Assembly (NCBI RefSeq): GCF_035645195.1
Contig: NZ_DASQNA010000030.1
Coordinates: 62,001-126,000, forward strand
Reading direction: 5' to 3'
DNA from: Paenibacillus sp.
Lineage (GTDB): Bacteria > Bacillota > Bacilli > Paenibacillales > YIM-B00363
DNA length: 64,000 bases
Position numbers and translations under genes: made by a program. Under the pieces are notes generated by a model. That model was not told the DNA's origin. It did no database searches and saw only the letters and a program-made list of their open reading frames with translations. Shown in pieces: positions 10,411 to 54,600 of this stretch; position 1 is the first letter of the stretch; each line of letters starts with the position of its first letter.

Positions 10411-10468
10411 CATCATGCTATCCTTTATGGAAACGGTCCACATCCATAAAGGAAGGGGCATTCGAATC

Positions 10469-11218
10469 ATGAAACTTTCCTATGACCAAAAGAAACAACT
10501 GATCGACGACGGTTACGTCCGCATCCCGGGGGTCGTGCCGCCGGCGATGATCCGGAACGCATTGCAGGCGATCAACCATTCGATCGGCAGCGGGATGGAT
10601 ACGGAGAAGATGCCGATCTACCGCGCGCAATCGTTCTGCCCCGAGCTGCAGCAGGCGCCGGTCATCGGCGATTTGTTCGACCGTACCCCGGCGATCGATC
10701 TCGTCGCGTCCGCCTTGGACGGCCGGGACAGCTTCCGGCGGGGGAAGGGCGCGCAGATCGCGCTGCGCTTCCCGATGCTGCAGGATCCGCCGCCGCGTCC
10801 GGCGCCGCATCTCGACGGCATGTACACGCCGACGAACGGCGTTAAGGAGGGAACGATCGCGAGCTTCACCGCGCTCGTCGGCATTCTGCTGAGCGATCTG
10901 CCGGAGACGAACGCGGGCAACTTCACGGCGTGGCCGGGCAGCCATCGGCAGTTCGAGCAATACTTCCGGGAGCACGGGCCGGAAGCGCTGCTGAACGGGC
11001 TGCCGCCGGTCGAGCTGCCGGAGCCGCGCCAAATTACGGGACGCGCCGGCGATATGATCCTGTGCCATTATTTGCTGGGGCACGGCATCGCGCCGAACGT
11101 GTCGCCGAACATCCGGTACGCCGTCTTCTTCCGCATGACGCATGTCGATCACGAATGGCGGAAGCCGATGACGGACATGTGGATGCATTGGGGCGGGGTA
11201 CGGGACATTCTTCAATAA
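10469..11218 (+). CDS. phytanoyl-CoA dioxygenase (PhyH) family protein
   Basis: A 249-residue protein of the PhyH superfamily, Fe(II)/2-oxoglutarate oxygenases that hydroxylate small molecules. The HxD iron ligands are in PHLDGMY (His114, Asp116) and the distal His is in LLGHGIAP near 205. An Arg for 2-oxoglutarate follows in NIRYAVFF. ATG 10469 is preferred because AAGGAAGGGG lies at good spacing; an ATG 54 bases upstream has no such site. The gene stands alone between the LacI locus and the rhamnoside locus and is followed by its own terminator. The substrate is unknown. Confidence 0.87.
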   Translation: MKLSYDQKKQLIDDGYVRIPGVVPPAMIRNALQAINHSIGSGMDTEKMPIYRAQSFCPELQQAPVIGDLFDRTPAIDLVASALDGRDSFRRGKGAQIALRFPMLQDPPPRPAPHLDGMYTPTNGVKEGTIASFTALVGILLSDLPETNAGNFTAWPGSHRQFEQYFREHGPEALLNGLPPVELPEPRQITGRAGDMILCHYLLGHGIAPNVSPNIRYAVFFRMTHVDHEWRKPMTDMWMHWGGVRDILQ

Positions 11219-11299: not shown

Positions 11300-11329
11300 G
11301 GTCGAAATTTTGTTGTTTGAAGGTCGAAA
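11300..11329 (+). promoter_or_regulatory. candidate YesN-type operator, copy 1
   Basis: Two GGTCGAA half-sites start 22 bases apart (11300 and 11322), about two helical turns, as expected for direct-repeat sites of AraC-type regulators. The first half extends as GTCGAAATTTTGTTG. It closely matches the element at 19549-19578. A weak -10-like TACGAT lies at 11360, 38 bases after the second half-site start, and an AAACGTTT palindrome overlaps that region. Confidence 0.55.
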
Positions 11330-11417
11330 GCTCGGTAGTAGCTTCGGGGGCGAAACGTTTACGATAAGGGCAGAACTTATGCAGATAGATTTCGGTCAAC
11401 TAGGAAGGAGCAGAACG

Positions 11418-12380
11418 ATGGTCACCATCACAACGAAACCCGCGGCGGCGACGAAGAAACAGGCGAACGTATGGAAAAATCGCTACAAACCCTATGTTCC
11501 GATCTTCCTCATGATGCTGCCTGGCCTGATTTATTTGGTCATCAACAATTATTTGCCCATGTTCGGTCTCGTCATCGCGTTCAAGAAAATCGACTATGCG
11601 AGGGGCATCTTAGGCAGCCCGTGGACCGGCTTCGATAACTTTATGTTTCTCTTTAAGACATCGGACGCCTACATTATCACTCGGAACACATTATTGTATA
11701 ACGGGGTGTTCATCGTCCTGACGGCGATCCTTTCGATCGCGGTCGCCATCTTGTTGAACGAAGTGCGCAGCAAGTTGATGTCCAGGCTGTACCAAAGCAT
11801 CATATTGCTGCCCTTTCTCATTTCTATGGTCATCGTCGGCTATCTGGCGTTCGCGTTTTTCGGCAATGCGCAGGGCTACGTAAACAATTCGATCTTGCCC
11901 CTGTTCGGCATGGATCCCATCTCGTGGTATATGGAACCTCAGTACTGGCCTTATATTTTAACGTTCGTACAGCTGTGGAAGACGGTCGGCTTCACCTGCA
12001 TCATTTACTTGGCTTCCATTATCGGCATCGATCCGGAGTATTACGAAGCGGCGACGTTGGACGGGGCGAACAAATGGCAGCAAATTCGGACGATTACGAT
12101 TCCTCTGATCATGCCTGTCATTATTATTATGACGCTGCTCGCGGTCGGCCGCATTTTCTATTCCGATTTCGGACTGTTTTATCAAGTGCCGATGAACTCG
12201 GGAATGCTGTACGACACGACGAACGTCATCGATACGTACGTGTTCAGAGGGTTGCTGCAGAACGGCGACATCGGCATGTCCTCCGCCGCAGGCTTCTACC
12301 AATCGGTCGTCGGGTTTGCGTTAGTACTGTTTGCAAACTGGTCGGTGAAAAAGTTCAGCAAAGAGAACGCCCTATTTTAA
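11418..12380 (+). CDS. LplB/YteP-type ABC sugar permease
   Basis: A membrane protein of about 320 residues with six helices. The opening IFLMMLPGLIYLVINNYLPM and the EAA loop EAATLDGANKWQQIRTITIP identify the LplB branch of CUT1 permeases, usually for complex oligosaccharides. ATG 11418 follows AGGAAGGAG; in-frame codons further upstream lie within the operator region and have no ribosome binding site. It is first in an operon with a second permease, GH78 rhamnosidase and a two-component system. The cognate binding protein is encoded more than 7 kb downstream, behind a similar operator. Confidence 0.9.
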   Translation: MVTITTKPAAATKKQANVWKNRYKPYVPIFLMMLPGLIYLVINNYLPMFGLVIAFKKIDYARGILGSPWTGFDNFMFLFKTSDAYIITRNTLLYNGVFIVLTAILSIAVAILLNEVRSKLMSRLYQSIILLPFLISMVIVGYLAFAFFGNAQGYVNNSILPLFGMDPISWYMEPQYWPYILTFVQLWKTVGFTCIIYLASIIGIDPEYYEAATLDGANKWQQIRTITIPLIMPVIIIMTLLAVGRIFYSDFGLFYQVPMNSGMLYDTTNVIDTYVFRGLLQNGDIGMSSAAGFYQSVVGFALVLFANWSVKKFSKENALF

Positions 12381-12396
12381 ATCGAGGTGAACGGCA

Positions 12397-13281
12397 ATGG
12401 GTATGGATCATCGATTATGGCAATGGATTTCGCACGTATGCTTGGCAGTGTTTTCGATCCTGTGCATCGTGCCCTTCGTACTGTTGATCGCCTCGTCCAT
12501 GTCGAGCGAGCAAGAGATTATCAAGCATGGATACAAGTTTATCCCCGAGGCGTTCAGCCTCGATGCATACCGATATTTGTTGTCCAATTTCAACGTCATC
12601 TCCCGGGCATACGGCATTACTGTCCTCGTCACGGTGGTCGGCACGACGGTCAGCTTGGTGATGACGGTGATGCTGGGGTACGGCCTCTCGAAGCGGGAGA
12701 TGCCGTTCAATCGCTTCTTTACCTTCTTCGTGGTGTTTACGCTGCTGTTCAACGGCGGCTTGGTTCCGACCTATTTGATTTACACGCAAGTGTTCGCGAT
12801 CAAGAATACGATTTGGGCGCTGCTGATTCCCGGATTGTTGATGAACGGCTTTAACGTGTTCCTGGCGAGCACCTTCTTCCGTACGACCGTGCCGACACCG
12901 GTGCTCGAGTCGGCGAGAATGGACGGAGCGGGGGAGATGCGCACATTCTTCCAAATCGTGCTCCCGCTCTCTCTGCCGATCATGGCGACGATCGGATTAT
13001 TTAACGGGATCGCTTACTGGAACGACTGGAACAACGGGTTGATTTATTTGTCGGATCCGATGTTGTTCAGTATCCAGAATCTATTGAACCAAATGATTCA
13101 AAACATCGAGGCGATCAAGACGTCCAGTACGGCATATGGTGCGAGCTCCGCTATGGAACTCCCTAGCGAAACCGTGCGCATGGCGATCGCGGTCGTCGGC
13201 ATTATTCCGATTCTGGTCGCGTATCCGTTCTTCCAAAAGTATTTCGTGAAGGGCATCGCGATCGGCGCGGTCAAAGGATGA
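12397..13281 (+). CDS. YtcP/LplC-type ABC sugar permease
   Basis: A 294-residue partner permease with six helices and the EAA loop ESARMDGAGEMRTFFQIVLP. It ends in IAIGAVKG, typical of LplC-like subunits. AGGTGA lies seven bases before ATG, 16 bases after the previous stop. It forms the heterodimer with the upstream LplB-type subunit. Confidence 0.93.
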   Translation: MGMDHRLWQWISHVCLAVFSILCIVPFVLLIASSMSSEQEIIKHGYKFIPEAFSLDAYRYLLSNFNVISRAYGITVLVTVVGTTVSLVMTVMLGYGLSKREMPFNRFFTFFVVFTLLFNGGLVPTYLIYTQVFAIKNTIWALLIPGLLMNGFNVFLASTFFRTTVPTPVLESARMDGAGEMRTFFQIVLPLSLPIMATIGLFNGIAYWNDWNNGLIYLSDPMLFSIQNLLNQMIQNIEAIKTSSTAYGASSAMELPSETVRMAIAVVGIIPILVAYPFFQKYFVKGIAIGAVKG

Positions 13282-13329
13282 TGGGATCGCGCGTTGCGGG
13301 CTAAGTAAAGCAATCAGGGGGCAAAATCA

Positions 13330-16149
13330 ATGCCGATTTTGAAAATGAAATGCAACCATATTGCGAATCCGTTAGGATTCGACATGCAAACGGCAGTACT
13401 CAGCTGGGTGACCGAAGGCGAACCGGGCATGCGCCAGACGAAGGCGGCGGTGCGGATCGCGTTGGACCCGGACATGCGGCAGGTCGTCTACGATTCGGGT
13501 GAACGAGAAGACATCGACGGTATCGCGCACCCCGTCCGCCTGGAGTGGAAGCCGCGCACGCGTTACTATTGGCGGGTGCGAGTATGGACCGACGCGGGCG
13601 CGGTCGCGGACAGCGAAATCGCTTGGTTCGAAACGGGCAAAAGAGACGAAGCGTGGCAGGCCCGTTGGATCGGTTCACCGGAGGACATCGAGCATCCGTC
13701 GTTCGCCAAAGCGTTCGAATTGCCGGCCGCGCCGATCTCCGCCCGCTTGTACGCGTGCGGGGTTGGGCTCTACGAGGCACAGTTGAACGGTGAACACGTC
13801 GGCGGCGAATATTTGACTCCGGGCTGTAACGATTACGATACATGGCTGCAGGTGCAAACGTACGATGTAACGGGCTTGCTGCGCGCCGGCCGGAACGAGC
13901 TGAGCGCGATCCTCGGACCGGGCTGGGCGCTGGGACGGTTCGGCCTGCACGGCGGCAAAGTGCGCATGTACGGCGAACGCCCGGCTTTCTTGGCGGAGCT
14001 GGTCGTCCGCATGGCCGACGGTACGGAACTTCGGATCGGCACGGACGCTTCCTGGCAAACCGTCGCAAGCGCGATTACGGCGAGCGGCATATACGACGGG
14101 GAAACGCTGGACGCCCGGCTGCAGGCGCCGCAGGAGCAGCGCGCGGCCTTGGAAACGGAGCAGCCGGTGAAGGGCCGCCTGACGGACCGGCGGAGCTTGC
14201 CGGTCGTTCGCAAGGAGACGCGCCGCGTGTCGGACATCGTGACCACCCCGCAAGGGGACACCGTGCTCGATTTCGGGCAAAACATGGCCGGGTGGGTGAC
14301 GTTCCGGGCGAACGCCCCGGCAGGAACGGAAATCGTGCTGGAATTCTCGGAATTCATGCAGCACGGGGAATTTTATACGGATAATCTTCTAACGGCCAAG
14401 CAGACGTTCACTTATATTTCAGACGGTACGACGGCATGGGTGCGGCCGCATTTTACGTATTTCGGGTTCCGCTATGCGCGCGTGCGCGGGTTGGAGTATA
14501 TCGAGCCAGAGTCGCTGGAGGCGTGGGTGCTGTATTCCGATATGGAATCGACCGGCGAGCTGGAGACGTCGAACCCTTTGGTCAACCGGCTCGTTCAGAA
14601 TGCGCTCTGGGGCCAAAAGAGCAACTTCCTTGAAGTGCCGACCGACTGTCCGCAGCGGGACGAGCGGCTCGGCTGGACCGGCGACGCGCAAGTGTTCGCT
14701 CCGACGGCAGGCTTCTATATGGATACGGCCGCATTTTTTAGCAAATATTTGTTCGATTTAGCTTGCGAGCAGACGAAGTTGAACGGCGCCGTACCGACGG
14801 TGATTCCGCTGATGATCGGAGGCGGAATGTACTCGGCCGCTTGGGGGGACGCGGCCACGATCATTCCGTGGCAGCAATACGTGCAATTCGGCGATGCGTC
14901 GATTTTGGAAGCGCAGTGGGATTCGATGAAGAGCTGGGTGGAATATGTAAGGAGCCGCGCCGGAGAAACGCATCTGTGGAAGAACGATCCTCATTTCGGC
15001 GATTGGCTGGCCCTGGACAGCACGACCGGCAGCTTGTCGGGAGGAACGCTCCAAGATCTCATCGCGACCGCTTATTACGCCAACTCCGTCCGACTGCTCG
15101 CGAAAGCCGCGGAAGTGTTGGGGCGCAAGGAAGACGAGCGCGAATATACAAATCTGTTCGAACAGATTCGGGAGGCGTTCCTCAAGGAGTTCGTTACCCC
15201 GAACGGGCGCATCGTCTCCGTCACCCAAACGGCGCAAATTCTTCCGCTCTATATGGAGCTTTTGCCCGAGGAATGGAGACAGGGCGCGGCGGATACGCTG
15301 GCGCAGCTTGTCGTCAAGGCGGGCTACCGTCTGCAGACCGGCTTCGTCGGCACGCCTTTCCTGTGCAAGATGCTGTCCGACTACGGGCATAGGGATCTGG
15401 CATACAAGCTGCTGCTCAACGAGGAGCTTCCCGGCTGGCTGTATCCGGTGAAGATGGGGGCTACCACGGTTTGGGAACGTTGGGATTCGGTGTTGCCGGA
15501 CGGGAGTATGGCTCCGCACGGAATGAATTCTCTGAATCATTACGCCTACGGCTCCATCGTCACCTGGATGGTACAAGATATGGCGGGGATTCAGCCGATG
15601 GAGAATGCGCCGGGGTATCGCCGCTTCCGGCTCGCGCCGAAGCCGAACGGCCGTCTGCGGCACGCGAAGGCCCGTTACGACAGCCGCGCCGGAACGATCG
15701 AGAGCGGCTGGTCTCTAGAGGACGACGGAACGCTGCGGCTGGAATTCGTCGTGCCGTTCCATACAGAAGCGGAGCTGATTCTGCCCGACTGCGAACCGGG
15801 AAGGATTCGGTACGAAGGGGCGCGCAAACCGTCCGACATCGTACAGGACGGCGCCGACTGCCGCATGAAGCTTGCGGCCGGAACGCATCGCTTCTCGTAT
15901 GCACCGACCGTCGCCTACTTGCCTCGCTACAATTCTTACAGCGATTTGCGGGATCTGCTCGCGGACGAGCGGATCGCGGCGATCGTGCGAAAGCATATTC
16001 CGGACATCGATCGGAAGCAAGGAGCCGTGTTCGGCATGAAACTAGCCAGTATGCGCGAGATGCAGTTCGTGACGCGCATTACGAACGAGCAGCTGGACGC
16101 GATGGATCAAGAATTGGACTATTATTATAAGTCTACTGTTGGTGTATAA
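13330..16149 (+). CDS. GH78 alpha-L-rhamnosidase
   Basis: A 939-residue enzyme of the GH78 family that releases terminal alpha-L-rhamnose from pectic or flavonoid glycosides by inversion. Residues 1-300 cover the N-terminal beta-sandwich and accessory domains. The (alpha/alpha)6 barrel contains DERLGWTGD (Glu445 proposed acid) and TVWERWD (Glu716 proposed base side). A C-terminal beta domain follows. The last ~75 residues form a predicted helical extension beyond the usual family end. No signal peptide is seen, so it should act on imported oligosaccharides. It lies in an operon between the permeases and the kinase gene, which suggests a rhamnose-containing ligand for this importer. Confidence 0.9.
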   Translation: MPILKMKCNHIANPLGFDMQTAVLSWVTEGEPGMRQTKAAVRIALDPDMRQVVYDSGEREDIDGIAHPVRLEWKPRTRYYWRVRVWTDAGAVADSEIAWFETGKRDEAWQARWIGSPEDIEHPSFAKAFELPAAPISARLYACGVGLYEAQLNGEHVGGEYLTPGCNDYDTWLQVQTYDVTGLLRAGRNELSAILGPGWALGRFGLHGGKVRMYGERPAFLAELVVRMADGTELRIGTDASWQTVASAITASGIYDGETLDARLQAPQEQRAALETEQPVKGRLTDRRSLPVVRKETRRVSDIVTTPQGDTVLDFGQNMAGWVTFRANAPAGTEIVLEFSEFMQHGEFYTDNLLTAKQTFTYISDGTTAWVRPHFTYFGFRYARVRGLEYIEPESLEAWVLYSDMESTGELETSNPLVNRLVQNALWGQKSNFLEVPTDCPQRDERLGWTGDAQVFAPTAGFYMDTAAFFSKYLFDLACEQTKLNGAVPTVIPLMIGGGMYSAAWGDAATIIPWQQYVQFGDASILEAQWDSMKSWVEYVRSRAGETHLWKNDPHFGDWLALDSTTGSLSGGTLQDLIATAYYANSVRLLAKAAEVLGRKEDEREYTNLFEQIREAFLKEFVTPNGRIVSVTQTAQILPLYMELLPEEWRQGAADTLAQLVVKAGYRLQTGFVGTPFLCKMLSDYGHRDLAYKLLLNEELPGWLYPVKMGATTVWERWDSVLPDGSMAPHGMNSLNHYAYGSIVTWMVQDMAGIQPMENAPGYRRFRLAPKPNGRLRHAKARYDSRAGTIESGWSLEDDGTLRLEFVVPFHTEAELILPDCEPGRIRYEGARKPSDIVQDGADCRMKLAAGTHRFSYAPTVAYLPRYNSYSDLRDLLADERIAAIVRKHIPDIDRKQGAVFGMKLASMREMQFVTRITNEQLDAMDQELDYYYKSTVGV

Positions 16150-16162
16150 TACGAACATTCCT

Positions 16163-16186
16163 AGGACCGCCTCAGTAGGCGGTCCT
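16163..16186 (+). terminator. hairpin after GH78 gene
   Basis: A perfect 10-bp stem (AGGACCGCCT) with a CAGT loop, followed only by TTCG. It sits 20 bases before the kinase start. It may be a leaky terminator that lowers kinase/regulator expression relative to the transport genes. Confidence 0.6.
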
Positions 16187-16205
16187 TTCGCAGGTGGTGC
16201 AACAG

Positions 16206-17942
16206 ATGAGATGGCTTCTTAACCTATCGCTTTTAGGCAATTCGGTTCGAACGAAGCTGGCGCTTAGCGTCCTGATGATCACGGTGCCTTTGTTCGGATT
16301 GTTGTATTATTACAACTACTACGCGGCGCAGGTCGTTCATACGCAGGTCGGCAGCTCGAACAAGAGCATGATGTCCTTATACATGACGCAGATCGACGCG
16401 GGGCTCGACGGAGTAGACCAGTATTTGCTCAATCTCATTGCTTCCGATTACGATATTCAATTAATGAGCCGGCCTCGCACGGAGGAAGAGTTCGTCCTGG
16501 CGAAGGTGAGAGTGAACAATAAGCTGGACAGCGACGCGTTAATGTATAAATCCGTCGTCAATTCGATTTTCGTGTATTCGCCGGACCAGGGAGCGATCGC
16601 GGCGACGGCGACGGGGATCGGCAGCAGGGAGTATACGATGCTGAATCGATACATTCAAACCGAGCTGCTGCAATCGTTCGAGGACGGCAGCGTACCGACC
16701 CGTTGGTTCGTAAGGAAGATCGGGGATGACCATTATTTGTTCCGAATTCAGCCCGGCGACAGGCTTTGGCTGGGCGCCTGGGTCAATCTAAGCACACTGC
16801 AGAAGCCCTTGTCGCTCATCGACTTCGGGGAGAACGGCAACTCGCTGTTTATTACGGAATCGGGCGTTCCAATGACCAACCGGGACTACGTGACGTCCCG
16901 GGAGCTGCAGCTGCAGCCCGTTCGGAATCAAGCCTATACGACGGGGCCCGGCAACGAGTACCACGTCATCAACGCCGCTTCGGCGAAGGGCGATTTCGGG
17001 CTCGCGGCCGTCGTCGCGGATGAAACGGTGCTGCAAAATTTGCCGTACCTCAACCGGATCGTGATCAGTATCACGCTGATCGGGATACTCTTAATCCCGC
17101 TTTACTTCCTCTATTTGCGAAGAACGGTGCTCACCCCGCTCAATAAAATCATCTACGCGATGAAACGAATCGGAGACGGCAGCCTGCAAACGAGGATCGA
17201 GCCGTTCCGAACGTCCGACGAATTCGCGGCCGTCAACCGCAATTTTAACGACATGATCGGGCAAATCCAGGATTTAAAGATTTCGGTGTACGAAGAGCAG
17301 TTAAGTAAACAAAAAGCGGAGCTGCAGCATCTGCAGCTGCAAATCAACCCGCACTTTTTCATGAACACTCTGAATTTGATTTATAGCCTAGCGTTGGACA
17401 AGGATTTCGAATTAATCAAAGACATGACGCTGCGGCTCGTCAAACATTTCCGGTATATGTTCCGAAGCAACTTAACGTTCGTCCCTCTGAAGGACGAGCT
17501 CGAGCACGTTCGCAATTATTTGGCGATCCACGAGCTGAGATTCCAGCAGAAGTTGAATTGCCGAATCGATGCTCCTGAACCGCTGCTGAAGGCCATGGTT
17601 CCGCCTCTTATCATTCAGACGTACGTAGAGAACGCGCTCAAATACGCGTCCTCCGTCGAGAATCCCCTCGCCTTGGACGTTACGGTTCGCGGGGACGATT
17701 GGGAGGGAGATGCCGCGATGGTGATCGAAATCGCGGACGAGGGCGCCGGCTACGATGAACGGCTGCTTCCGTTGTTAAACGCGGGAGAGCGCATCGTCGA
17801 CGAGCAAGGCGAGCATATTGGGGCTTGGAACGCGTGGCACCGGCTCCGCCTTTTGTATGGAGAGGGAGCCTATATTCAGTATTTCAATCGTCTGCCCCAT
17901 GGAGCGAAGGTCGTCATCCGGCTTCCGTTCCATTCGAATTAA
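16206..17942 (+). CDS. YesM-type sensor histidine kinase
   Basis: A membrane kinase of about 578 residues. It has TM1 near 15-40, an extracellular sensory domain of about 240 residues, and TM2 (ISITLIGILLIPLYFLYL). A HAMP segment and the His_kinase region QINPHFFMNTLN follow, with phospho-acceptor His383, then a HATPase domain (VENALKYA N-box, ADEGAGYD). ATG 16206 is selected because AGGTGG lies eight bases upstream; the GTG twelve bases earlier would begin inside that site. It is paired with the AraC-type regulator 27 bases downstream. Ligand inferred from context: a rhamnose-containing saccharide or the loaded binding protein. Confidence 0.9.
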   Translation: MRWLLNLSLLGNSVRTKLALSVLMITVPLFGLLYYYNYYAAQVVHTQVGSSNKSMMSLYMTQIDAGLDGVDQYLLNLIASDYDIQLMSRPRTEEEFVLAKVRVNNKLDSDALMYKSVVNSIFVYSPDQGAIAATATGIGSREYTMLNRYIQTELLQSFEDGSVPTRWFVRKIGDDHYLFRIQPGDRLWLGAWVNLSTLQKPLSLIDFGENGNSLFITESGVPMTNRDYVTSRELQLQPVRNQAYTTGPGNEYHVINAASAKGDFGLAAVVADETVLQNLPYLNRIVISITLIGILLIPLYFLYLRRTVLTPLNKIIYAMKRIGDGSLQTRIEPFRTSDEFAAVNRNFNDMIGQIQDLKISVYEEQLSKQKAELQHLQLQINPHFFMNTLNLIYSLALDKDFELIKDMTLRLVKHFRYMFRSNLTFVPLKDELEHVRNYLAIHELRFQQKLNCRIDAPEPLLKAMVPPLIIQTYVENALKYASSVENPLALDVTVRGDDWEGDAAMVIEIADEGAGYDERLLPLLNAGERIVDEQGEHIGAWNAWHRLRLLYGEGAYIQYFNRLPHGAKVVIRLPFHSN

Positions 17943-17969
17943 ACTTACTAGTTACGGAGGCTAAGCCGA

Positions 17970-19547
17970 ATGAACCTCATTATCGTCGACGACGAGCCTC
18001 TGGCGGTTCGGAGCGTCATGAATGCGATCGATTGGAGCAAGCTGGGCATCGAGCATGTGTACGACGCGAACAGCGCCAAGCAGGCGAAGGAGCTATTCGC
18101 CGAGCAGCAGATCGATATGATGCTATGCGATATCGAGATGCCGAAGGAGAGCGGGCTCGAGCTGCTCGCTTGGGTGCGGGAACAGCATCCTTCCACCGTC
18201 TCGATCTTTTTGACCTGTCACGCCGATTTTCATTTTGCCAAGGAAGCCATTCGATTGGGCAGTTTAGATTACTTGCTGAAGCCGATCCCGCCGGAGGAGC
18301 TAGAGGCGGCGATTTCCAAGGCGATTGAACAGTTGAAGGCAGAGCATGAGCTGAAGCGCCGGAGCGAATCGTGGGTGAAGCATCATCCGTTGTTTATCGA
18401 GCGGTTTTGGACCGACATCTTCAGCCGAACGATCCCGTCCTCTCCAGAGGCGGTGGAATCGGCGGCGCGCGAACGTAATATTCACCTCCCGGAAGGCCTA
18501 GCGATTACGCCGGTGCGGGTTCAGGTGCGAAGGTGGCATAAAGAGCTGACCCAGCGGGACGAGAAAATTATGGAATACGCCTTGGCGAATGCGCTGCAGG
18601 AGAGCTCCGGCGGCATCGGGGAGACGTATGGCATTATTGCGCCGGAACGGAACTATCTGGTGGCGATGCTGGGCCGCATCACGGCCGATAAGGGAAAGAT
18701 AAAGAAGCTGCTGCAGGAATACATTGACAATTGCCGGAGATTTTTCTACTGCGATCTTTCGGTCTACGTCGGCGAACCGACGGCGGTCCATGAGCTGCCG
18801 ATCGCGCACTCCCGATTGGAGAGACTGATGCGAGATAACGTCGCGAGCGAAAATCAGGTGCTATTCCTGGATGAGCAGCGGGAAGAGGATGCTGCGGTGG
18901 CTTGGCCCGACATGAAGCTCTGGCTGCATATGCTGCAAGAGGGCTCTGGCTCTAAGGGGCGGCTTCTGGAGGAAGTGAACAAGTTTTTAAAGAGGCTGCA
19001 GGGCGTTCCGGGGTTAAAGACGTTAACGCTGCACCAATTTCACCAGGATCTTCTTCAAATCGTATACTCCGTGCTGGGCGAAAAGGGCATTCAAGCGCAT
19101 CATTTATTCCGTGACCAAGTTTCCGTCGAGCTGTCCGACCGTTCCGCCGACTCCGTGAAGCATATGGCGGAATGGGCGCACCATTTGATCGAGAAAGCGC
19201 TCGGATATGCGGAGGAAATCGAAGCGTCCGAGTCGATCGTCGGCAAGGTCAAAGCCTATATTACGAAAAATATGCATGAGGACCTGAATCGGGAGATCAT
19301 CGCAAGCTCGTTCTTTTTACATCCGGATTATATGAATCGGTTATTTAAGAAGCAAACCGGACTCTCGATGACGGAATTTCTATTGAACGAGCGGATGCGC
19401 GTCGCGGAAGAGCTGCTGGCGAAGACGGATATGCCGGTGACGAGAATCGCGATGAACGTCGGGTATTCCAATACGTCGCATTTTGCCAAAACGTTCAAAA
19501 AGCAATACGGAGCCAATCCGAACGAATATCGGCAGATGAAGCGGTAG
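17970..19547 (+). CDS. YesN-type response regulator (receiver + AraC HTH)
   Basis: A 525-residue regulator. Its receiver domain carries VDDEP acidic residues, phospho-acceptor Asp54 in LCDIEMP, and the Lys of LLKPIPP. A long linker/dimerisation region follows, and the C-terminal ~100 residues form an AraC double helix-turn-helix (SSFFLHPDYMNRLFKKQTG, then the VGYSNTSHFAKTFKK signature). It is probably phosphorylated by the adjacent kinase and activates the locus. The two similar 22-bp-spaced GTCGA direct repeats at 11300 and 19549 are the natural candidate targets. Confidence 0.92.
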   Translation: MNLIIVDDEPLAVRSVMNAIDWSKLGIEHVYDANSAKQAKELFAEQQIDMMLCDIEMPKESGLELLAWVREQHPSTVSIFLTCHADFHFAKEAIRLGSLDYLLKPIPPEELEAAISKAIEQLKAEHELKRRSESWVKHHPLFIERFWTDIFSRTIPSSPEAVESAARERNIHLPEGLAITPVRVQVRRWHKELTQRDEKIMEYALANALQESSGGIGETYGIIAPERNYLVAMLGRITADKGKIKKLLQEYIDNCRRFFYCDLSVYVGEPTAVHELPIAHSRLERLMRDNVASENQVLFLDEQREEDAAVAWPDMKLWLHMLQEGSGSKGRLLEEVNKFLKRLQGVPGLKTLTLHQFHQDLLQIVYSVLGEKGIQAHHLFRDQVSVELSDRSADSVKHMAEWAHHLIEKALGYAEEIEASESIVGKVKAYITKNMHEDLNREIIASSFFLHPDYMNRLFKKQTGLSMTEFLLNERMRVAEELLAKTDMPVTRIAMNVGYSNTSHFAKTFKKQYGANPNEYRQMKR

Positions 19548-19548
19548 A

Positions 19549-19578
19549 AGTCGAGATTGTGTTGCTCCGGGGTCGAAG
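19549..19578 (+). promoter_or_regulatory. candidate YesN-type operator, copy 2
   Basis: GTCGA repeats start 22 bases apart (elements from 19549 and 19571). The first half reads GTCGAGATTGTGTTG, matching copy 1 at 13 of 15 positions, and the second half GGTCGAA is identical. A -10-like TATGAT at 19608 lies 37 bases after the second half-site, the same layout as copy 1. The next gene is the binding lipoprotein. Confidence 0.55.
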
Positions 19579-19656
19579 TTCGAGCGGTCGATCCGCCGGC
19601 GGGATTGTATGATGAATACAGTACCACGAAATCACACCTATTGCGGGGGGTTTGGC

Positions 19657-21177
19657 ATGAAAAAGACAGTAAGGGCTTTCTTATGTACTGGATTGGCTGC
19701 ATTCATGGCAATTGCGACGGCTTGCGGCTCTAACACGGGAACGACAAACAATGGTTCCGCGCCGACCGCGGAGGAAACGCCGACGGATGCCGCTGCGAAG
19801 AGCGAACCGGTCGAAATCGTATTAGGCTATCCGGTTCTAGGAGAAGTGCCTGCGGATACCGACGCGGTGGAAGCGGAAATTAACAAAATTACGCTGGAGA
19901 AAATAAACGCCAAGGTAAAGCTGTCCAGAATTTCGATCGGTCAATGGTTTCAGCAACAAAACCTGATCTTGGCCGGCAATGAGCAGATGGATTTATACGT
20001 GGCCAGCTTCGAAGATTATGCGAGCTTCGTTGCGAAAAATCAATTTCTTGAGCTGGACGAGCTGCTCGAAACGCATGGGCAGGGCGTTCTAGAAGCGTTA
20101 GGCGACAGCAAGCTCGAGGCGGCCACAATCAACGGCAGCATCTATGCTACGCCGGTGAACAGCTTCACCGATACGGGCACGGCGCTCCTGATGCGGAAGG
20201 ACCTGCTGGAGAAGCATGGTTTCGATATTTCCCAGATCAAAGGGACGAACGACTTGGACGCGGTGTTCCAGACGATGAAAGAGAAGGAGAACTTAATTGG
20301 CCTTGCCGCGCCGAACGGCCCAATGCCGATGACGCACGTCGTCGACTGGTTGAGCTACGATACGCTGGCCAACAGCTTGGGCGTTCTGCCGCACAACTCT
20401 GCGGACATGAAAGTCGTCAATTTGTTCGAGATGCCGGAATATGTGGAAGCGTTGAAAAAGATGAGAAGCTGGTACCAAGCCGGTTACTTGCCGAAGGATG
20501 CCGCGAACGCGAAGTCGGCGCCGCAAGATTTGCTTAAGAGCGGCGAAGTGTTCTCGATCTTCGAAGGAAACACCGTATTCTTGGAAGACCAAATTTCGAC
20601 GACGTCCGGCAAAGAGGTAGTTAAGGTGGTTATGCAAAAGCCGGTCCTTACGACGCAAAACGTATTGGGCTTGATGTGGGCGATGCCTCGAAACAACGTG
20701 AAGCACCCGGAAAAGGCGATGGAGTTCCTCAACCTGATGTATTCGGACAAGGACATCATTAATTTAATCAACTTCGGAATCGAAGGAAAACATTACACGA
20801 AGGTGAGCGACAACGTCATTTCGCTTATTCCGGACAGCGGGTATCGGATGAATCAATCCTTCATGTTCGGCAACCGGTTGTTGACGTATGTGCTGGAGGG
20901 AGAAGACCCGGCGCTGCGCGAAGCGGATCTGGAGTTCGGCAAGACGGTCGAGCGTTCCCGCGCGTTAGGCTTCCTGCCGAAGACCGAAGCGGTCACCAAT
21001 GAAATCGTAGCGGTCAAGAACGTGCTGGATCAATATCGGAAAGCGCTGGAGACGGGCAGCGTCGACCCGGAGAAGGTGCATCCGGAATTCGTCGCCAAAT
21101 TGAAAGCGGCCGGCATCGACACCATCATCGCGGATAAGCAAAAGCAATTGGACGCTTGGCTCGCGCAGCAAAAGTAA
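19657..21177 (+). CDS. LplA-type sugar-binding lipoprotein
   Basis: A binding protein of about 506 residues. It has a lipoprotein signal (MKKTVRAFL, hydrophobic stretch, IATACGSN lipobox), an N/T/A-rich linker and a large DUF3502/LplA-like fold. The start follows GGGGGG at 19657; an ATG 48 bases upstream lies in the promoter region. It should capture the oligosaccharide for the permeases at 11418-13281. Its own candidate operator and promoter let it be expressed more strongly than the permeases. A strong terminator follows. Confidence 0.88.
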   Translation: MKKTVRAFLCTGLAAFMAIATACGSNTGTTNNGSAPTAEETPTDAAAKSEPVEIVLGYPVLGEVPADTDAVEAEINKITLEKINAKVKLSRISIGQWFQQQNLILAGNEQMDLYVASFEDYASFVAKNQFLELDELLETHGQGVLEALGDSKLEAATINGSIYATPVNSFTDTGTALLMRKDLLEKHGFDISQIKGTNDLDAVFQTMKEKENLIGLAAPNGPMPMTHVVDWLSYDTLANSLGVLPHNSADMKVVNLFEMPEYVEALKKMRSWYQAGYLPKDAANAKSAPQDLLKSGEVFSIFEGNTVFLEDQISTTSGKEVVKVVMQKPVLTTQNVLGLMWAMPRNNVKHPEKAMEFLNLMYSDKDIINLINFGIEGKHYTKVSDNVISLIPDSGYRMNQSFMFGNRLLTYVLEGEDPALREADLEFGKTVERSRALGFLPKTEAVTNEIVAVKNVLDQYRKALETGSVDPEKVHPEFVAKLKAAGIDTIIADKQKQLDAWLAQQK

Positions 21178-21188
21178 CCTCGTCGACG

Positions 21189-21221
21189 AACCGACCATGC
21201 GAGTGGTCGGTTCTTTTTTTT
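21189..21221 (+). terminator. rho-independent terminator of binding-protein gene
   Basis: AACCGACCA / TGGTCGGTT perfect stem with six-base loop, then CTTTTTTTT. The GH1 gene starts only 30 bases beyond, so it probably depends on read-through. Confidence 0.9.
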
Positions 21222-24186: not shown

Positions 24187-25941
24187 GTGATCCGCTTGAA
24201 CCTCAAGACGCGAATCGCTTCGCTCCGGCTTTTTCCCAAGCTTGTGCTTACTTTTCTATTCGTATTAAGCCCGCTGTACATTATCGGGACGCTGATGAAC
24301 GAATCCGGCTCCCGCAATATTCAACAAGAAATCGCGAGCTCGTTGTCGTCCCGCGTCGATCTGTACATGGAGATGATCGACAACGATCTGTATCGCGTCT
24401 ACCAGCTGCTGCAGCAGTACGTGAACGACGAAGACCTGCAAAATTTGAGCGTCAAAGCCGAGATCATGACCGATTTCGACCGAACGCAGGCCATACTCCG
24501 GCTGAAACGGCGGCTCGATTTGCTGAAGCAGTCCAGCGTGTTCGTGGAGAATGTGTCCGTCATGATCCCGCTGCTGCATCGGACGATCTCGTCCAACGAC
24601 GAGTCGATCGCCGAATTCGATTCGTCGCAGTTCGAAGCGCTTCGACTTGCGCCGAGCCGGCTCGAATCGCCGTTCATGGTGTGGCAGGATCGCATATTTA
24701 TCAGCATGGCGTACCCGGATGCGTCGACGAAGCGGCGCCCCGTCTTTCTGCTCTTGATCGAAATTTCCCGTTCCGAGCTGACGTCGGCGCTCGCCCGGTT
24801 TACGACGAAAGGCGGCGGCGCCGTGCTCGCCGGCAAGAGCATCGATTGGGCCGTCGTCGGCACGGCGGGCGCGAGCGAACACCGCGACTTGTTCGAATCG
24901 GTCGACGGGCGGGCGGCCGGCGCGCTGAGGGAAGTCGACATCGGAAAGCGAGCGTATTTGGCGGCGACGAAGCCGTCCGAGCGGTTCGGCATGTCGCTGA
25001 CGATGTTCGTCCCCGCTGAACAAGTGAACGCGCCGGTCCTGACGTACCGCAAGTGGCTGATCGCCCTGTCCGCGGCGTCCGCGGCGATCGCCGTCCTGTT
25101 TTCCTACAGCCTGTACCGGCTGATCCACCAGCCGCTGCGCGCGCTCATGCATACGTTCCGGCGCGTCGAACAGGGCCAATTGAACCAGACGGTGGCGTAT
25201 CCGTTCAAAGACGAGTTCGGGTATTTGTACGACCAGTTCAATGCGATGATTCGGCAGCTGAACGTGCTGGTGCACGAAGTGTACGAGCAGCAATACCGGG
25301 CGAAGCTGTCGGAGCTTAGGCACTTGCAGTCCCAAATCAATCCGCACTTTCTGTACAACACGTACTACATTCTATACCGCATGGCGAAACGAGAGGACAA
25401 CGAGAATCTTCTGCGGCTGACGAAGCATCTGGGGGATTATTTTCAATACATCACGCGCGACGCGGCCGACGAGGTGCCGTTCGCGAAAGAGGCGCACCAT
25501 GCGAGGACGTATATGGAGATTCAATCGATCCGGTTCGGCGGCCGGGTAGAGACGTCGTTCGACGAGCTTCCGGAGGGGGCGGAGCAGCTGCCGGTTCCGC
25601 GGCTCCTGCTCCAGCCGATTATTGAGAACGCTTACCAGCATGCGCTGGAGAAAATGTCCCGGGGCGGCTGGCTTCATGTCGGCATTACGCTTCGGCCGGA
25701 GGAGCTGATCGTCACGGTCGAGGACAACGGCGAAGGGCTGACGCAGGAAAAGCTGGATGAATTGCAGCTGGCGCTGCGGACGTACGACGCCGCGCGGGAA
25801 AGCACGGGGATGTTGAACGTTCACCGCAGACTGCGGATCAAATACGGCGAACGAAGCGGACTTCGGCTTACCGCCGGCGGCCGGGGAGGGCTTCGGGTCG
25901 AACTCGTCATTCCGAGGGGAGAGGAGAACGAGCATGCATAG
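24187..25941 (+). CDS. YesM-type sensor histidine kinase
   Basis: A kinase of about 584 residues. It has TM1 (KLVLTFLFVLSPLYIIGTL), an extracellular sensory domain to about 280, and TM2 (ALSAASAAIAVLFSYSLYRL). A HAMP region, QINPHFLYNTYY with phospho-acceptor His387 (numbered from GTG 24187), and a HATPase domain (IENAYQHA, DNGEGL) follow. Start uncertain: GTG 24187 is only one base after AGGAC, whereas TTG 24196 is ten bases after AGGA and may be the real start. It overlaps the next gene by eight bases, indicating coupled translation with its regulator. Confidence 0.88.
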   Translation: MIRLNLKTRIASLRLFPKLVLTFLFVLSPLYIIGTLMNESGSRNIQQEIASSLSSRVDLYMEMIDNDLYRVYQLLQQYVNDEDLQNLSVKAEIMTDFDRTQAILRLKRRLDLLKQSSVFVENVSVMIPLLHRTISSNDESIAEFDSSQFEALRLAPSRLESPFMVWQDRIFISMAYPDASTKRRPVFLLLIEISRSELTSALARFTTKGGGAVLAGKSIDWAVVGTAGASEHRDLFESVDGRAAGALREVDIGKRAYLAATKPSERFGMSLTMFVPAEQVNAPVLTYRKWLIALSAASAAIAVLFSYSLYRLIHQPLRALMHTFRRVEQGQLNQTVAYPFKDEFGYLYDQFNAMIRQLNVLVHEVYEQQYRAKLSELRHLQSQINPHFLYNTYYILYRMAKREDNENLLRLTKHLGDYFQYITRDAADEVPFAKEAHHARTYMEIQSIRFGGRVETSFDELPEGAEQLPVPRLLLQPIIENAYQHALEKMSRGGWLHVGITLRPEELIVTVEDNGEGLTQEKLDELQLALRTYDAARESTGMLNVHRRLRIKYGERSGLRLTAGGRGGLRVELVIPRGEENEHA

Positions 25942-27541
25942 ATTGTTGATCGTCGACGACGAACCGTACGTCGTGGAAGCGATGGCCGAAATGTTGCAGG
26001 AGATTGACGATTTAGGAGTAGAGCTGTACACGGCTTGCGCCTCGGAGGACGCGGTGCAGCTGATGACGCGCGCGAAGATGGACATTGTGCTGAGCGACAT
26101 TCGGATGCCCGGCATGGACGGGCTCGAGCTGCAGCGCTGGATTCAGGCGCGATGGCCGCGATGCAAGGTCATCTTCCTGACCGGGATGAGCGATATCCAG
26201 TACATCCAGCATGCGCTGCGGAACGGCGGCGTCGACTACATCTTAAAGACGGAGGGCGACGAGGCGGTCGAACGGGCGATTCGGAAGGCGATCGGCGCGA
26301 TCCGCGAAGAAGCGATGAACGAGCAGGCGCTCGTCAAGGCGCGAAACCAAATGTCGCAGGCGATGCCCTTGCTGCGGAAGGACTGGTTCCACGGCTTGCT
26401 CGACCCGCAGCGGGCCTCCTCATGCCTCCAGCCGGCAAGGCTGCAGGAAGCTGAGGTGCCGCTGCGCACCGACTGCAAGGCGCTGCTCGTCGCGGGCCGC
26501 GTCGACCGATGGCGGGAGGAGGATCGGGATTCCGGCCGCATGCTGCTGCTGTACGCGATCCAGAACATCGCCGAAGAATATTTGGCGCGCGTCGCGTTCC
26601 TGCCGGTCATTCTCGGAAGCGCGTATTTCGTCTGGCTCGTCCAGCCCGCAGGCGGCAGCGAAGCGGAATGGGACGATACGGCGAGCTTCGTGCTGGGGAC
26701 GCTCGAGAGCATCCAATCGACCTGCAAGGATTTGCTGCGGCTGCCGGTTTCGCTCGTGACGACCGGGCGTCCTTGCGCGTGGGAGGAGCTGGCCGCGGCG
26801 TACCGCCAGCTGAAGCAGACGATGATTTTGGGGCTGGGGGACGGCACGGAGATGCTGCTCACGCATTGCGAGACGGAGGCGCCGCGGGACGGTTACGCCG
26901 GCGTGCCCGACCGGCGGCTCGCGGAATTGGAGCAGCTGCTGGAATCCGGCCGGCAGGAGGAGTGGAACTTGCACCTCGACGAGCTGTTCGCGGCGAGCTT
27001 CCCGAATTACGCATCTTACGTGCAAGCGTACTACACGGTTGCCGTCATGCTGCTAAAGCATATGAACGAGTGGGGCGCCGGCGCTGCGTCCGACGGGGAC
27101 GGCTGGAAGAAGCTGATGGACGTGGACAGCCACCCGTCCAGAGAATCGGCCGTGACGTACTTGAAGGGCATCGCTTCCTCGCTGACGGACCGGAGGCAGC
27201 GGAATATCGACGAACGGACGCATAAAGTCATCCAAAAAATTAACCAGCATATCCGGGAGCATCTAGCCGACGACCTGTCTTTGGACGCGTTGGCGTCGGT
27301 CGTTTATTTGAACGCCTCCTACCTTTCCACGCTGTATAAGCAGTTCGCAGGCGTCAATTTGTCCGACGTGATCGCCGATCTGCGCATCGCCAAAGCGCAA
27401 GAGCTGCTCGTCTCTACGCCGCTCAAAATTCACGAAATCGCCGTTCGGGTCGGCTTCGGAACGTCGGGATATTTTACGAGATATTTCAAAAAGCATACCG
27501 GCGTCACGCCGCAGGAGTACCGCGCCGCGCACGAAGCTTGA
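25934..27541 (+). CDS. YesN-type response regulator (receiver + AraC HTH)
   Basis: A 535-residue regulator. Its receiver has VDDEP, phospho-acceptor Asp55 in LSDIRMP and Lys in ILKTEGD, where the usual KP becomes KT. A middle region follows, and a C-terminal AraC helix-turn-helix (VVYLNASYLSTLYKQFAG and VGFGTSGYFTRYFKKHTG). It overlaps the kinase gene by eight bases. Likely targets are the matched sites at 27572 (binding-protein operon) and 22938 (GH43 gene). Confidence 0.92.
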   Translation: MHRLLIVDDEPYVVEAMAEMLQEIDDLGVELYTACASEDAVQLMTRAKMDIVLSDIRMPGMDGLELQRWIQARWPRCKVIFLTGMSDIQYIQHALRNGGVDYILKTEGDEAVERAIRKAIGAIREEAMNEQALVKARNQMSQAMPLLRKDWFHGLLDPQRASSCLQPARLQEAEVPLRTDCKALLVAGRVDRWREEDRDSGRMLLLYAIQNIAEEYLARVAFLPVILGSAYFVWLVQPAGGSEAEWDDTASFVLGTLESIQSTCKDLLRLPVSLVTTGRPCAWEELAAAYRQLKQTMILGLGDGTEMLLTHCETEAPRDGYAGVPDRRLAELEQLLESGRQEEWNLHLDELFAASFPNYASYVQAYYTVAVMLLKHMNEWGAGAASDGDGWKKLMDVDSHPSRESAVTYLKGIASSLTDRRQRNIDERTHKVIQKINQHIREHLADDLSLDALASVVYLNASYLSTLYKQFAGVNLSDVIADLRIAKAQELLVSTPLKIHEIAVRVGFGTSGYFTRYFKKHTGVTPQEYRAAHEA

Positions 27542-27571
27542 CGGGAGGCGGGCGCGAACATGTAAACGAAA

Positions 27572-27597
27572 GTCAACGCTTCTAGAAGAAGTGAAAT
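27572..27597 (+). promoter_or_regulatory. candidate regulator site upstream of importer operon
   Basis: GTCAACG, three bases, CTAGAA and then GTGAAA. The same order of blocks occurs at 22938-22962. It starts 48 bases upstream of the -10 TATACT (27620-27625). A CTTCTAGAAG palindrome lies inside it. Confidence 0.45.
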
Positions 27598-27619
27598 ATA
27601 CGCCTCGATCCGCGGGTTC

Positions 27620-27647
27620 TATACTAAAAGGGAAGACAGCGCTTTCA
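27620..27647 (+). promoter_or_regulatory. -10 box followed by cre site
   Basis: -10 TATACT at 27620-27625 without a good -35. At 27634-27647 the minus strand reads TGAAAGCGCTGTCT, matching the CcpA cre consensus at all but its last position. Placed just after the expected transcription start, it should give glucose repression by roadblock. Confidence 0.65.
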
Positions 27648-27666
27648 AACAAAGGGAGGAATTCCG

Positions 27667-29424
27667 ATGATCCGAAGGAAACAAGCGGCGGCTGCGATCG
27701 CTTCGATGCTTTGTTTGTCGCTTGCGGTGACCGCATGCAGCGGTGGCAGCGGTGGCGGCGGGGGCGGCGCGGGCGGCGCCGCGAATTCGAGCGAATCCGG
27801 GGGCGGCGCGTCCGGCGGCGCGTCCGGGACGTCCGGCGGCGCTTCAACCGAACAGCCCGCGGCCGAGGCGGATCCGTTGTTCGGCAAATACGAGCCGGGC
27901 ATCGAAATTTCCACCGTCCGCGTCATCGACGAGCTCAAATTCGCGGACGGGGACGATATCGATAACAACGTATGGACGCGCACGTTGAAGGAACGGCTTG
28001 GCATTACGATCAACAATCAGTGGGTCGTCAAGCGGGATTTGGGGCAAGAAAAAATGAACGTCACCCTCGCTTCCGGCGATTTGCCGGACATCTTCGGCGT
28101 GAGCGATCCGACTCAGCTGAAGCAGCTGGTCGACTCCGAGCAAGTGTACGACTTGACCGAGCTGTATGAGAAGCACGCGTCGCCGCTCGTGAAGGAGTTC
28201 GCCGAGGCGACGACGAACGGCCTCGCCGCCGCGACGTTCGACGGCAAGCTGATGGCATTCCCGGCCGGCAACGCCACGATCGACAACGCGCCGATCCTGT
28301 GGATTCGCAAAGATTGGCTCGCGAAGCTGAATTTGCCGGAGCCGCAGACGATGGACGACGTGCTGAGAATAGCCGACGCTTTCGCGAATCAAGACCCGGA
28401 CGGGAACGGGAAGAAGGACAGCTACGGGCTCGCCTTGAATAAGACGCTGTTCTGGGCGAACGGCGGCGGCGCCTTCGGCAGCTTGGAAGGCTTCTTCAAC
28501 GGCTACCGCGCGTATCCGCAAAGCTGGATCAAAGACGCGAACGGGAACCTGGCCTACGGCAGCATTCAGCCGGAGATGAAGGCGGCGCTCGCTCAGCTGC
28601 AGGAGATGTATAAGAACGGCTTGATCGATAAAGAATTCGGCGTCAAGGACGAAAGCAAGGAAGCCGAGCTGGCGAACGCAGGAAAGTTGGGCATGGGGTA
28701 CGGCATGATGTGGAACACGCTGTGGCCGTTGAATGACGGTCGGAAGAACGATCCGAACACCGACTGGCAGGCGTACCCGATCGTGTCCGCCGACGGCAAT
28801 CCGGCGAAGCCGCAGACGCCCGCGCTCTCCGTCACCAATTACTACGTCGTGAACAAACATGCGAAAAACCCGGAAGCGCTCTTCAAAATGCTCAATTTGT
28901 TCGCGGAGCTGCAGTTCGACCCGAAGACGCCGAAGGAGGTTTGGGAGCAGCATTCCAAAATCAACGGCATCGAAACGTGGACGTACTACCCGTACCCGGT
29001 CGGCCGTCCCGACAAAAACTTGAAGATTCATCACAAGGTCGTCGCGACGCTGAAAAGCAGAGATCCGTCGGGGCTGAACCCGGAGGAGCTGGACGCGTAC
29101 AACAACAGCCTTGCGATGGCGGAAGGTACGGGAGACGCGAACGCATGGGGATATGACAAGGTGTTCGGACCGGAAGGCTCGTTCAAGGTCATCGACAAGT
29201 ACGTCACGGAGAAACTGCTGCAGCCGAGCGAGTTCTATGTGGCGCCGACGGCGACGATGGTGGATAAGAACGCGACGCTCCTTAAGATGGAGCAGGAAAC
29301 GTTCACGAAAATCATCATGGGCAGCGCATCGGTCGACGACTTCGACACATTCGTAAGCAATTGGAAAAAGCTCGGCGGCGATCAAATTACCGCGGAAGTG
29401 AACGAGTGGTATCAGTCCAAATAA
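27667..29424 (+). CDS. LplA/LipO-type extracellular sugar-binding lipoprotein
   Basis: A 585-residue binding protein. It has a lipoprotein signal (MIRRKQAAAA, hydrophobic core, AVTACSGG lipobox). An unusually long Gly/Ser/Ala-rich linker follows (residues about 25-60) that would tether the binding domain away from the membrane through the wall. The rest matches large oligosaccharide-binding proteins of Paenibacillus lpl-type importers. The ribosome binding site GGGAGG precedes ATG. It is first in an operon with two permeases, behind a two-component system and a cre site. Ligand unknown. Confidence 0.88.
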   Translation: MIRRKQAAAAIASMLCLSLAVTACSGGSGGGGGGAGGAANSSESGGGASGGASGTSGGASTEQPAAEADPLFGKYEPGIEISTVRVIDELKFADGDDIDNNVWTRTLKERLGITINNQWVVKRDLGQEKMNVTLASGDLPDIFGVSDPTQLKQLVDSEQVYDLTELYEKHASPLVKEFAEATTNGLAAATFDGKLMAFPAGNATIDNAPILWIRKDWLAKLNLPEPQTMDDVLRIADAFANQDPDGNGKKDSYGLALNKTLFWANGGGAFGSLEGFFNGYRAYPQSWIKDANGNLAYGSIQPEMKAALAQLQEMYKNGLIDKEFGVKDESKEAELANAGKLGMGYGMMWNTLWPLNDGRKNDPNTDWQAYPIVSADGNPAKPQTPALSVTNYYVVNKHAKNPEALFKMLNLFAELQFDPKTPKEVWEQHSKINGIETWTYYPYPVGRPDKNLKIHHKVVATLKSRDPSGLNPEELDAYNNSLAMAEGTGDANAWGYDKVFGPEGSFKVIDKYVTEKLLQPSEFYVAPTATMVDKNATLLKMEQETFTKIIMGSASVDDFDTFVSNWKKLGGDQITAEVNEWYQSK

Positions 29425-29434
29425 AGACGCTGAG

Positions 29435-29460
29435 GAGGGCGAGGGGCAACCCTGGCCCTC
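29435..29460 (+). terminator. intercistronic hairpin after binding-protein gene
   Basis: GAGGGC-G-AGGG / CCCT-G-GCCCTC with a GCAA tetraloop and one G-G mismatch, and no U-tract. It probably stabilises the upstream mRNA end so that the binding protein exceeds the permeases. Confidence 0.55.
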
Positions 29461-29487
29461 TTCCGCCGAAGGAAGGAGAGATCCCGT

Positions 29488-30444
29488 ATGAACCACCCGA
29501 CGGCCGAACGCGAGACGGCGGTCCGGACGACGTCTGCGGCGAGAATCCGCCGGGGCGGCCGGATTCCGCAGCTGCCGCTTCATCTCATGATCCTGCCTGG
29601 GCTGCTGCTCGTCGTCATTTATTGCTACGGTCCGATGCTGGGGCTCGTCATCGCGTTTCAAAAATTCGTGCCGGCGCGAGGGATCGGCGCTTCCGAGTGG
29701 ATCGGGCTTGAAAATTTCAAGTACGTGATGGCTTTGCCGGGCACGATGCAGGTGCTCTGGAATACGGTCGCCATCGCGTTCATGAAAATGGCCGCGCAGC
29801 TCGTCGTACCGATCGTCTTCGCGCTCCTTCTGAACGAAGTGAGGAAGGCGGTATTTAAACGCAGCGTACAAACCTTAATTTACCTGCCTCACTTTTTGTC
29901 CTGGGTCATTCTCGGCGGCATCCTGATCGACATGCTGTCCCCTTCCGAAGGGATTTTGAAGGACCTGCTGCTTCTTTTCGGCATCGAGCCGATCTACTTC
30001 CTAGGCAGCAATTTCTGGTTTCGTTACGTTATCGTCATCTCCGACGTATGGAAGGAATTCGGCTTCAACACGATCGTCTACCTGGCGGCGCTGACGGGCA
30101 TTAACCCCGCCCTCTACGAGGCGGCTATCGTCGACGGCGCGGGGCGCTGGAAGCAAACGCTGCACATTACGCTGCCGGGCATGTCTTCCATTATTATATT
30201 GCTGGCTGTGCTCAGCCTCGGCAACGTACTGAACGCGGGGTTCGATCAAGTGTTCAACTTGTACAGTCCTCAGGTATACCAAACCGGCGACATTATCGAT
30301 ACGTTCGTCTATCGGCTCGGATTGGAACAGGCGCAGTACGGCGTTGCGACGGCCGTGGGGCTGTTCAAGTCGGTCGTCTCTCTGACGTTCATTTCGCTCT
30401 CGTATTATTTGGCTTACCGGTTCGCCAATTACCGCATTTTCTAA
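29488..30444 (+). CDS. LplB-type ABC sugar permease
   Basis: A 318-residue membrane protein. After a basic, charged N-terminal tail, LMILPGLLLVVIYCYGPM starts the first helix; six helices and the EAA loop EAAIVDGAGRWKQTLHITLP follow. GAAGGAGAG precedes ATG. It partners the permease 18 bases downstream and the binding protein upstream. Confidence 0.93.
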   Translation: MNHPTAERETAVRTTSAARIRRGGRIPQLPLHLMILPGLLLVVIYCYGPMLGLVIAFQKFVPARGIGASEWIGLENFKYVMALPGTMQVLWNTVAIAFMKMAAQLVVPIVFALLLNEVRKAVFKRSVQTLIYLPHFLSWVILGGILIDMLSPSEGILKDLLLLFGIEPIYFLGSNFWFRYVIVISDVWKEFGFNTIVYLAALTGINPALYEAAIVDGAGRWKQTLHITLPGMSSIIILLAVLSLGNVLNAGFDQVFNLYSPQVYQTGDIIDTFVYRLGLEQAQYGVATAVGLFKSVVSLTFISLSYYLAYRFANYRIF

Positions 30445-30462
30445 CGAAAGGAGCGATCAGCC

Positions 30463-31347: not shown

Positions 31348-31361
31348 ACGGACTCCTCAAT

Positions 31362-31399
31362 AGAACAGCCGCTCACCGATCCGGGGCGGCTGTTCTTTC
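31362..31399 (+). terminator. hairpin terminator of importer operon
   Basis: AGAACAGCCGC / GCGGCTGTTCT perfect 11-bp stem, 13-base loop, followed by TTCG. The U-tract is short. Confidence 0.7.
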
Positions 31400-31512
31400 G
31401 TATTGACACATTTCCGGGGATGAACCGGAGGGAGGAACCGGGGCGGGGACAACGCCGCAAACCCAGTCGTATCAAGGGTTCTGAATTCGGTTCATGGCCG
31501 GAAAGGTGTCTA

Positions 31513-31542: not shown

Positions 31543-31573
31543 GTGGGTAACCGACCGACAGAAAGGGATGTTT

Positions 31574-32530: not shown

Positions 32531-32541
32531 GGGGCGGCGTC

Positions 32542-54589: not shown

Positions 54590-54600
54590 GGGGGAGAAAC

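Follow-up and report, generated by a model that had tools for sequence, protein, structure and literature searches.

At the araBAD promoter of Escherichia coli, the AraC half-sites araI1 and araI2 are direct repeats that lie 21 bp apart. Two-component systems that belong to importers have been described in Caldicellulosiruptor bescii; BxgRS, AviRS and others are pairs of a kinase and an AraC-type response regulator encoded beside a CUT1 importer (PMC8579813). The same study predicts tandem-repeat sites with large spacers upstream of promoters, based on a search for a 21- or 32-bp periodicity, lists two conserved sites for BxgRS, and infers that most of the regulators are activators (PMC8579813). 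The XydS/XydR system of Clostridium cellulolyticum has a YesN-like regulator of 532 aa, which bound upstream of its target genes in gel shifts and was needed for their expression; no consensus operator was defined, and the regulon consists of cellulosomal genes (PMC3572039). In the pneumococcal YesNM / TCS07 system, YesN could not be linked to any clear repeat motif (PMC11034029). A literature search, which covered mostly non-subscription papers, retrieved no earlier description of a GTCG operator for YesN-type regulators and no published operator for the YesMN-type systems of Paenibacillaceae. Direct-repeat activator sites for AraC-type two-component importer regulators have already been predicted in Caldicellulosiruptor, and the locus described here is a further, well-supported case. 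Possible novelties are how widely the operator family extends in Paenibacillaceae and an apparent residue-to-base code.

The locus is part of a 64-kb stretch of a Paenibacillus genome, which was analysed over its whole length and is called the window. The following features were annotated:

11418..12380, forward strand: ABC importer permease 1 (Pfam BPD_transp_1)
12397..13281, forward strand: ABC importer permease 2 (Pfam BPD_transp_1)
13330..16149, forward strand: GH78 alpha-L-rhamnosidase (Pfam Bac_rhamnosid6H and companion domains)
16194..17942, forward strand: YesM-type sensor histidine kinase (Pfam His_kinase, HAMP)
17970..19547, forward strand: YesN-type response regulator with receiver and AraC-type double HTH (Pfam Response_reg, HTH_18)
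19657..21177, forward strand: lipoprotein solute-binding protein (SBP_bac_8 and DUF3502)
21188..21213, forward strand: Rho-independent terminator 3' of the binding-protein gene (terminator prediction)

The first promoter precedes the two permeases, the GH78 rhamnosidase, the YesM-type kinase and the YesN-type response regulator, in this order, and the second begins 2 bp past the regulator stop codon, with the DUF3502 binding-protein gene downstream. The first-pass annotation had spoken of the two split halves of one importer. The separate promoters agree with this description, but the genes are not distant from one another, as the gap between the regulator gene and the binding-protein gene is about 110 bp. 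Because no terminator was predicted in this gap, the binding-protein gene may receive read-through from the operon in addition to transcription from its own promoter. A gene for a PhyH-type dioxygenase is found at 10415-11218, immediately 5' of the importer operon.

Pfam analysis revealed a receiver and a C-terminal AraC-type HTH in the regulator, next to a kinase with His_kinase and HAMP domains, as is typical of YesM/YesN pairs, and this domain content suggests that phosphotransfer from kinase to regulator would control transcription. The two BPD_transp_1 permeases and the SBP/DUF3502 protein identify the adjacent importer as CUT1-type; the genes from 11418 to 21177 do not include one for an ATPase. 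The regulator is YesN-like and similar in size to XydR, and the system is of the YesMN type, like pneumococcal YesNM / TCS07, but it is linked to an importer and not, as in the case of XydR, to a cellulosomal regulon. It resembles the C. bescii systems, which belong to another lineage, in gene setting and in having tandem-repeat sites, a likeness of architecture (PMC8579813). Like AraC the regulator has a double HTH, and the AraC structure 2k9s was the second-best PDB match of its DNA-binding domain; unlike AraC it is a phosphorylatable response regulator without an arabinose-binding domain. Two further systems are present in the window. At 24187-35125, kinase 24187 and regulator 25934 form another YesMN pair, which has genes for permeases and a binding protein downstream and is devoid of a GTCG operator. 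A third importer, at 52195-60686, includes a GH66 gene together with a dCache kinase (57307) and the YesN-type regulator 59031.

It had been noted earlier that each of the two transcription units is preceded by GTCGA half-sites 22 bases apart, and that each element is followed by a -10-like hexamer. The elements were recovered at exactly these positions (L076, L075 and L035 are related loci, see below):

11301 and 11323, forward strand: GTCGA words of element 1, GTCGAAATTTTGTTGTTTGAAGGTCGAA (direct re-reading)
11301..11315, forward strand: putative operator 1, half-site 1, GTCGA box and inner box TTGTTG (11310-11315), kept in L076, L075 and L035
11323..11339, forward strand: putative operator 1, half-site 2, GTCGA box (11323-11327) and inner box GGTAGT (11334-11339), adjoining the -35 position
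11360..11365, forward strand: TACGAT, -10-like hexamer in the promoter of the permease operon, 37 bases past the start of the second GTCGA
19550 and 19572, forward strand: GTCGA words of element 2, GTCGAGATTGTGTTGCTCCGGGGTCGAA (direct re-reading)
19550..19564, forward strand: putative operator 2, half-site 1, GTCGA box and inner box TGTTG (19560-19564)
19572..19588, forward strand: putative operator 2, half-site 2, GTCGA box (19572-19576) and inner box AGCGGT (19583-19588)
19608..19613, forward strand: TATGAT, -10-like hexamer in the promoter of the binding-protein gene, 36 bases past the start of the second GTCGA

The start-to-start distance of the GTCGA words is 22 bp in both elements. The identity reported for the first half-site extension (13 of 15 bases) and for the GGTCGAA of the second half was verified, and overall 21 of 28 bases agree. 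The second inner box of operator 2 is weak, and neither promoter has a good -35 hexamer. Given the 299 GTCGA words on both strands of the window, about 0.7 pairs with 22-bp spacing were expected in the 64 kb, and two were seen, both on the forward strand, namely elements 1 and 2. A bare pair of this kind is thus only weakly unusual and its spacing alone says little; the longer joint match is more telling. With up to three mismatches, the pattern GTCGANATTNTGTTGN6GGTCGAA occurred four times on the forward and not once on the reverse strand of the 5.95-Mb genome, and the control pattern did not occur at all. The four matches were elements 1 and 2, one site upstream of a contig C10 gene, and one match on contig C16 (three mismatches), which appears to be coding and was excluded. 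A pattern match at window position 1750 (GTCGG) was outside the ten best matrix scores and was therefore treated as a chance occurrence.

An agreement of 21 of 28 bases, in the same orientation and within one locus, could also be what is left of a duplicated promoter, or a core-promoter element that both units share and that no regulator binds. A comparison with other loci bears on this question. Relatives of the regulator were collected, and about 20 kb were read around each of about 100 of them. A weight matrix was built from 51 non-redundant sites, all of them in other genomes and none in this one. It gave 42.0 bits at 11301 and 33.2 bits at 19550; the runner-up position in the window reached 1.0 bits, and among 40 resampled windows the highest score was 11.1 bits. 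GTCG pairs at 22 bp were present in 35 of 76 regions upstream of binding-protein or permease genes, and no other spacing between 8 and 45 occurred in more than five of the same 76 regions; control genes of the same loci did not exhibit the 22-bp peak. The pairs precede binding-protein, permease and kinase genes in dozens of loci of the YesN/DUF3502 importer family, often all three in one locus. In 81 of the 103 sites of the 22-bp class, counting from the second GTC, a -10-like hexamer begins at +36 (59 sites) or +37 (22 sites), and it was almost absent at the neighbouring offsets; in the 23-bp class it begins at +36 in 19 of 40 sites. Sites with the full definition numbered 153 in 2.0 Mb (102 loci), compared to 10 in the reversed control, and 78 versus 10 loci had at least one site. 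About one quarter of the 102 loci were without a site under the strict definition, and the strict listing contained no such site for the clostridial YesN relatives L094 and L099. The main group has a spacing of 22 bp and subgroups have one of 23 or 21 bp, and these classes track regulator subgroups. GTCA boxes with 21-bp spacing were observed at L156, L160 and L162, the regulators of which have NPAYLSRLF helices.

The closest relative, L076 (Paenibacillus sp. SY21-1), has a regulator with 72% identity, the same gene order and both sites, and in L075 (Cohnella mopanensis) and in L035 a site precedes each of the kinase, binding-protein and permease genes, three per locus. Four-way alignments of these loci with the window, a check that the first-pass annotation had proposed, revealed that the boxes are near-invariant and that half-sites and spacing are kept, while the flanks have diverged. 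This persistence across Paenibacillus and Cohnella loci, the fixation of the spacing at 22 bp (23 or 21 in subgroups), and the fact that the box letters follow regulator residues (see below) make a duplication remnant or a core-promoter element extremely unlikely. Instead, the two elements are very probably tandem head-to-tail operators of the YesN-type regulator encoded at 17970, which would activate both transcription units; this assignment is deduced from sequence comparisons.

The genome encodes about ten YesN paralogs, and similar GTCG operators with different inner boxes precede the paralogs' own importers, so that the elements could instead be targets of one of these, or of another YesN-type or AraC-type protein encoded in the window. 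In genome-wide pattern matching, GTCG N18 GTCG N30-34 TANNAT was found 15 times on the forward strand and once in the control, and most matches lie before YesN-linked importers. The paralogous loci each have their own inner box, and the sites group by locus: identity outside GTCG was 0.65 within a locus and 0.35 between paralogous loci, a difference that was reached in 0 of 5000 permutations. The combination of a TGTTG inner box with GTCGA occurred only with regulators that bear N456 and the S-H-F-A-K helices (window, L035, L075 and L076). The two other YesN-type regulators of the window (25934 and 59031) have unrelated helices, and no other place in the window scored like elements 1 and 2 in the matrix scan. 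Taken together, control by another regulator is quite unlikely. The 17970 protein, which the earlier annotation had already named, is favoured by the ortholog conservation, the family-wide 22-bp GTCG pairs and the covariation, and likewise by the differing recognition helices of its two neighbours and the absence of a further such site from the window.

The anatomy of the sites fits this regulator class. The information per repeat unit peaks at positions 0-3 (GTCG) and at about 13-15, which indicates a pair of contacts separated by one helical turn and agrees with an AraC-type double HTH. As at araI1-I2, two bipartite half-sites, each with one box per HTH, have the same orientation and lie about two helical turns apart, and the proximal one adjoins the -35 region, with the -10-like hexamer at +36/+37. 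Unlike araI1-I2, the operators of the window have a spacing of 22 bp and a GTCG box, and no looping site was seen. The recognition-helix residues of the regulator are N456 (helix 3) and T502, S503 and K507 (helix 6). For 53 representatives, 497 variable regulator columns were compared with the DNA letters. The letters after GTC were best predicted by residue 456, and those of the inner box by residue 507. N or D at 456 coincided with GTCGA (11/11), T at 456 with GTCGT, GTCGC or GTCGG (17/18), and H451 together with S456 with GTCAG (9/9). The DNA-binding domain was aligned with MarA (1bl0) over equal ungapped ranges, and residues 456 and 507 correspond to MarA positions 45 and 96, which we take to be on base-reading helices. 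The non-contact columns 468, 469 and 313 likewise ranked high, and compared to random triples of DNA-binding-domain columns the covariation was modest (P about 0.03 to 0.04). All columns share one phylogeny, and the ranking among columns is thus a partial control. Residues 456 for the box and 507 for the inner box can provisionally be named as base-reading, the modest P value and the high rank of columns 468 and 469 making the exact contacts provisional.

Regulator binding, phosphorylation, the direction of control and the ligand are parts of a mechanism that we infer as follows. Each 22-bp unit would be one bipartite AraC-type half-site, in which recognition helix 3 of the first HTH reads the GTCGA box and helix 6 of the second HTH the inner box, one helical turn on. 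Two regulator molecules would be bound on the same face of the DNA from about -70 to -33; counted from a -10 hexamer that begins at -12, the half-sites would start at about -70 and -48, the position of araI1-I2. The promoter-proximal molecule, placed against a -35 region that lacks a good hexamer, would recruit RNA polymerase. Upon sensing of an oligosaccharide the YesM-type kinase would bring about phosphorylation of the regulator, which would turn on the permease-GH78-kinase-regulator operon and separately boost the binding-protein gene. Positive autoregulation would result, because the kinase and regulator genes are part of the first operon. AraC-type proteins can repress at some sites, and the regulator might accordingly bind both sites but repress, or act differently at the two promoters. 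However, the sites are located entirely 5' of the -10 hexamer, beside the -35 region in an araI-like position and clear of the start site. In Caldicellulosiruptor, AraC-type regulators whose sites precede mapped starts were inferred to be activators (PMC8579813). Repression or divergent action is thus very unlikely, and activation of both units is the preferred reading.

The site on contig C10, GTCGTGATTTTGTTGTTAACAGGTCGAG (L060:9593-9660; contig C10:173593-173657 of genome G000), is a third operator of the same type, with TATAAT 37 bases past the second GTC. It precedes a lone apiosidase-like gene (PF13204), which is divergent from a gene for a ROK-family regulator. It shares the inner box with the window sites and is far from any YesN gene. 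The apiosidase gene is a likely third target of the 17970 regulator, judged by this operator, and it is plausible that the enzyme is a partner of the rhamnosidase in the use of pectin side chains; only these two enzymes hint at the substrate of the importer. With the same pattern, a counterpart of the third site was not found in the L075 and L076 genomes. A paralogous YesN locus, L057 (contig C8 of G000), taken together with contig C8:144396, has at least five near-identical operators of the GTCGTAGAAGTGCCA type over about 24 kb, which make it a candidate multi-promoter regulon.

Soil Paenibacillaceae have many YesMN-type systems next to sugar importers. An operator of defined, fixed geometry makes regulons readable from sequence, ties orphan genes, here the apiosidase, to their sensor, and makes the avoidance of cross-talk among similar paralogs testable by single-residue and box swaps. 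The evidence leans slightly towards the view that the YesN paralogs of Paenibacillaceae have a common operator architecture, made up of a GTCR box, an inner box, a spacing of 21-23 bp and a fixed distance to the -10 hexamer, and are insulated from one another by a short residue-to-base code, in which residue 456 would set the letters after GTC and residues 502 and 507 the inner box. If this is true, the operators, and hence the regulons, of hundreds of importer systems that are as yet uncharacterised would be predictable from the protein sequence.
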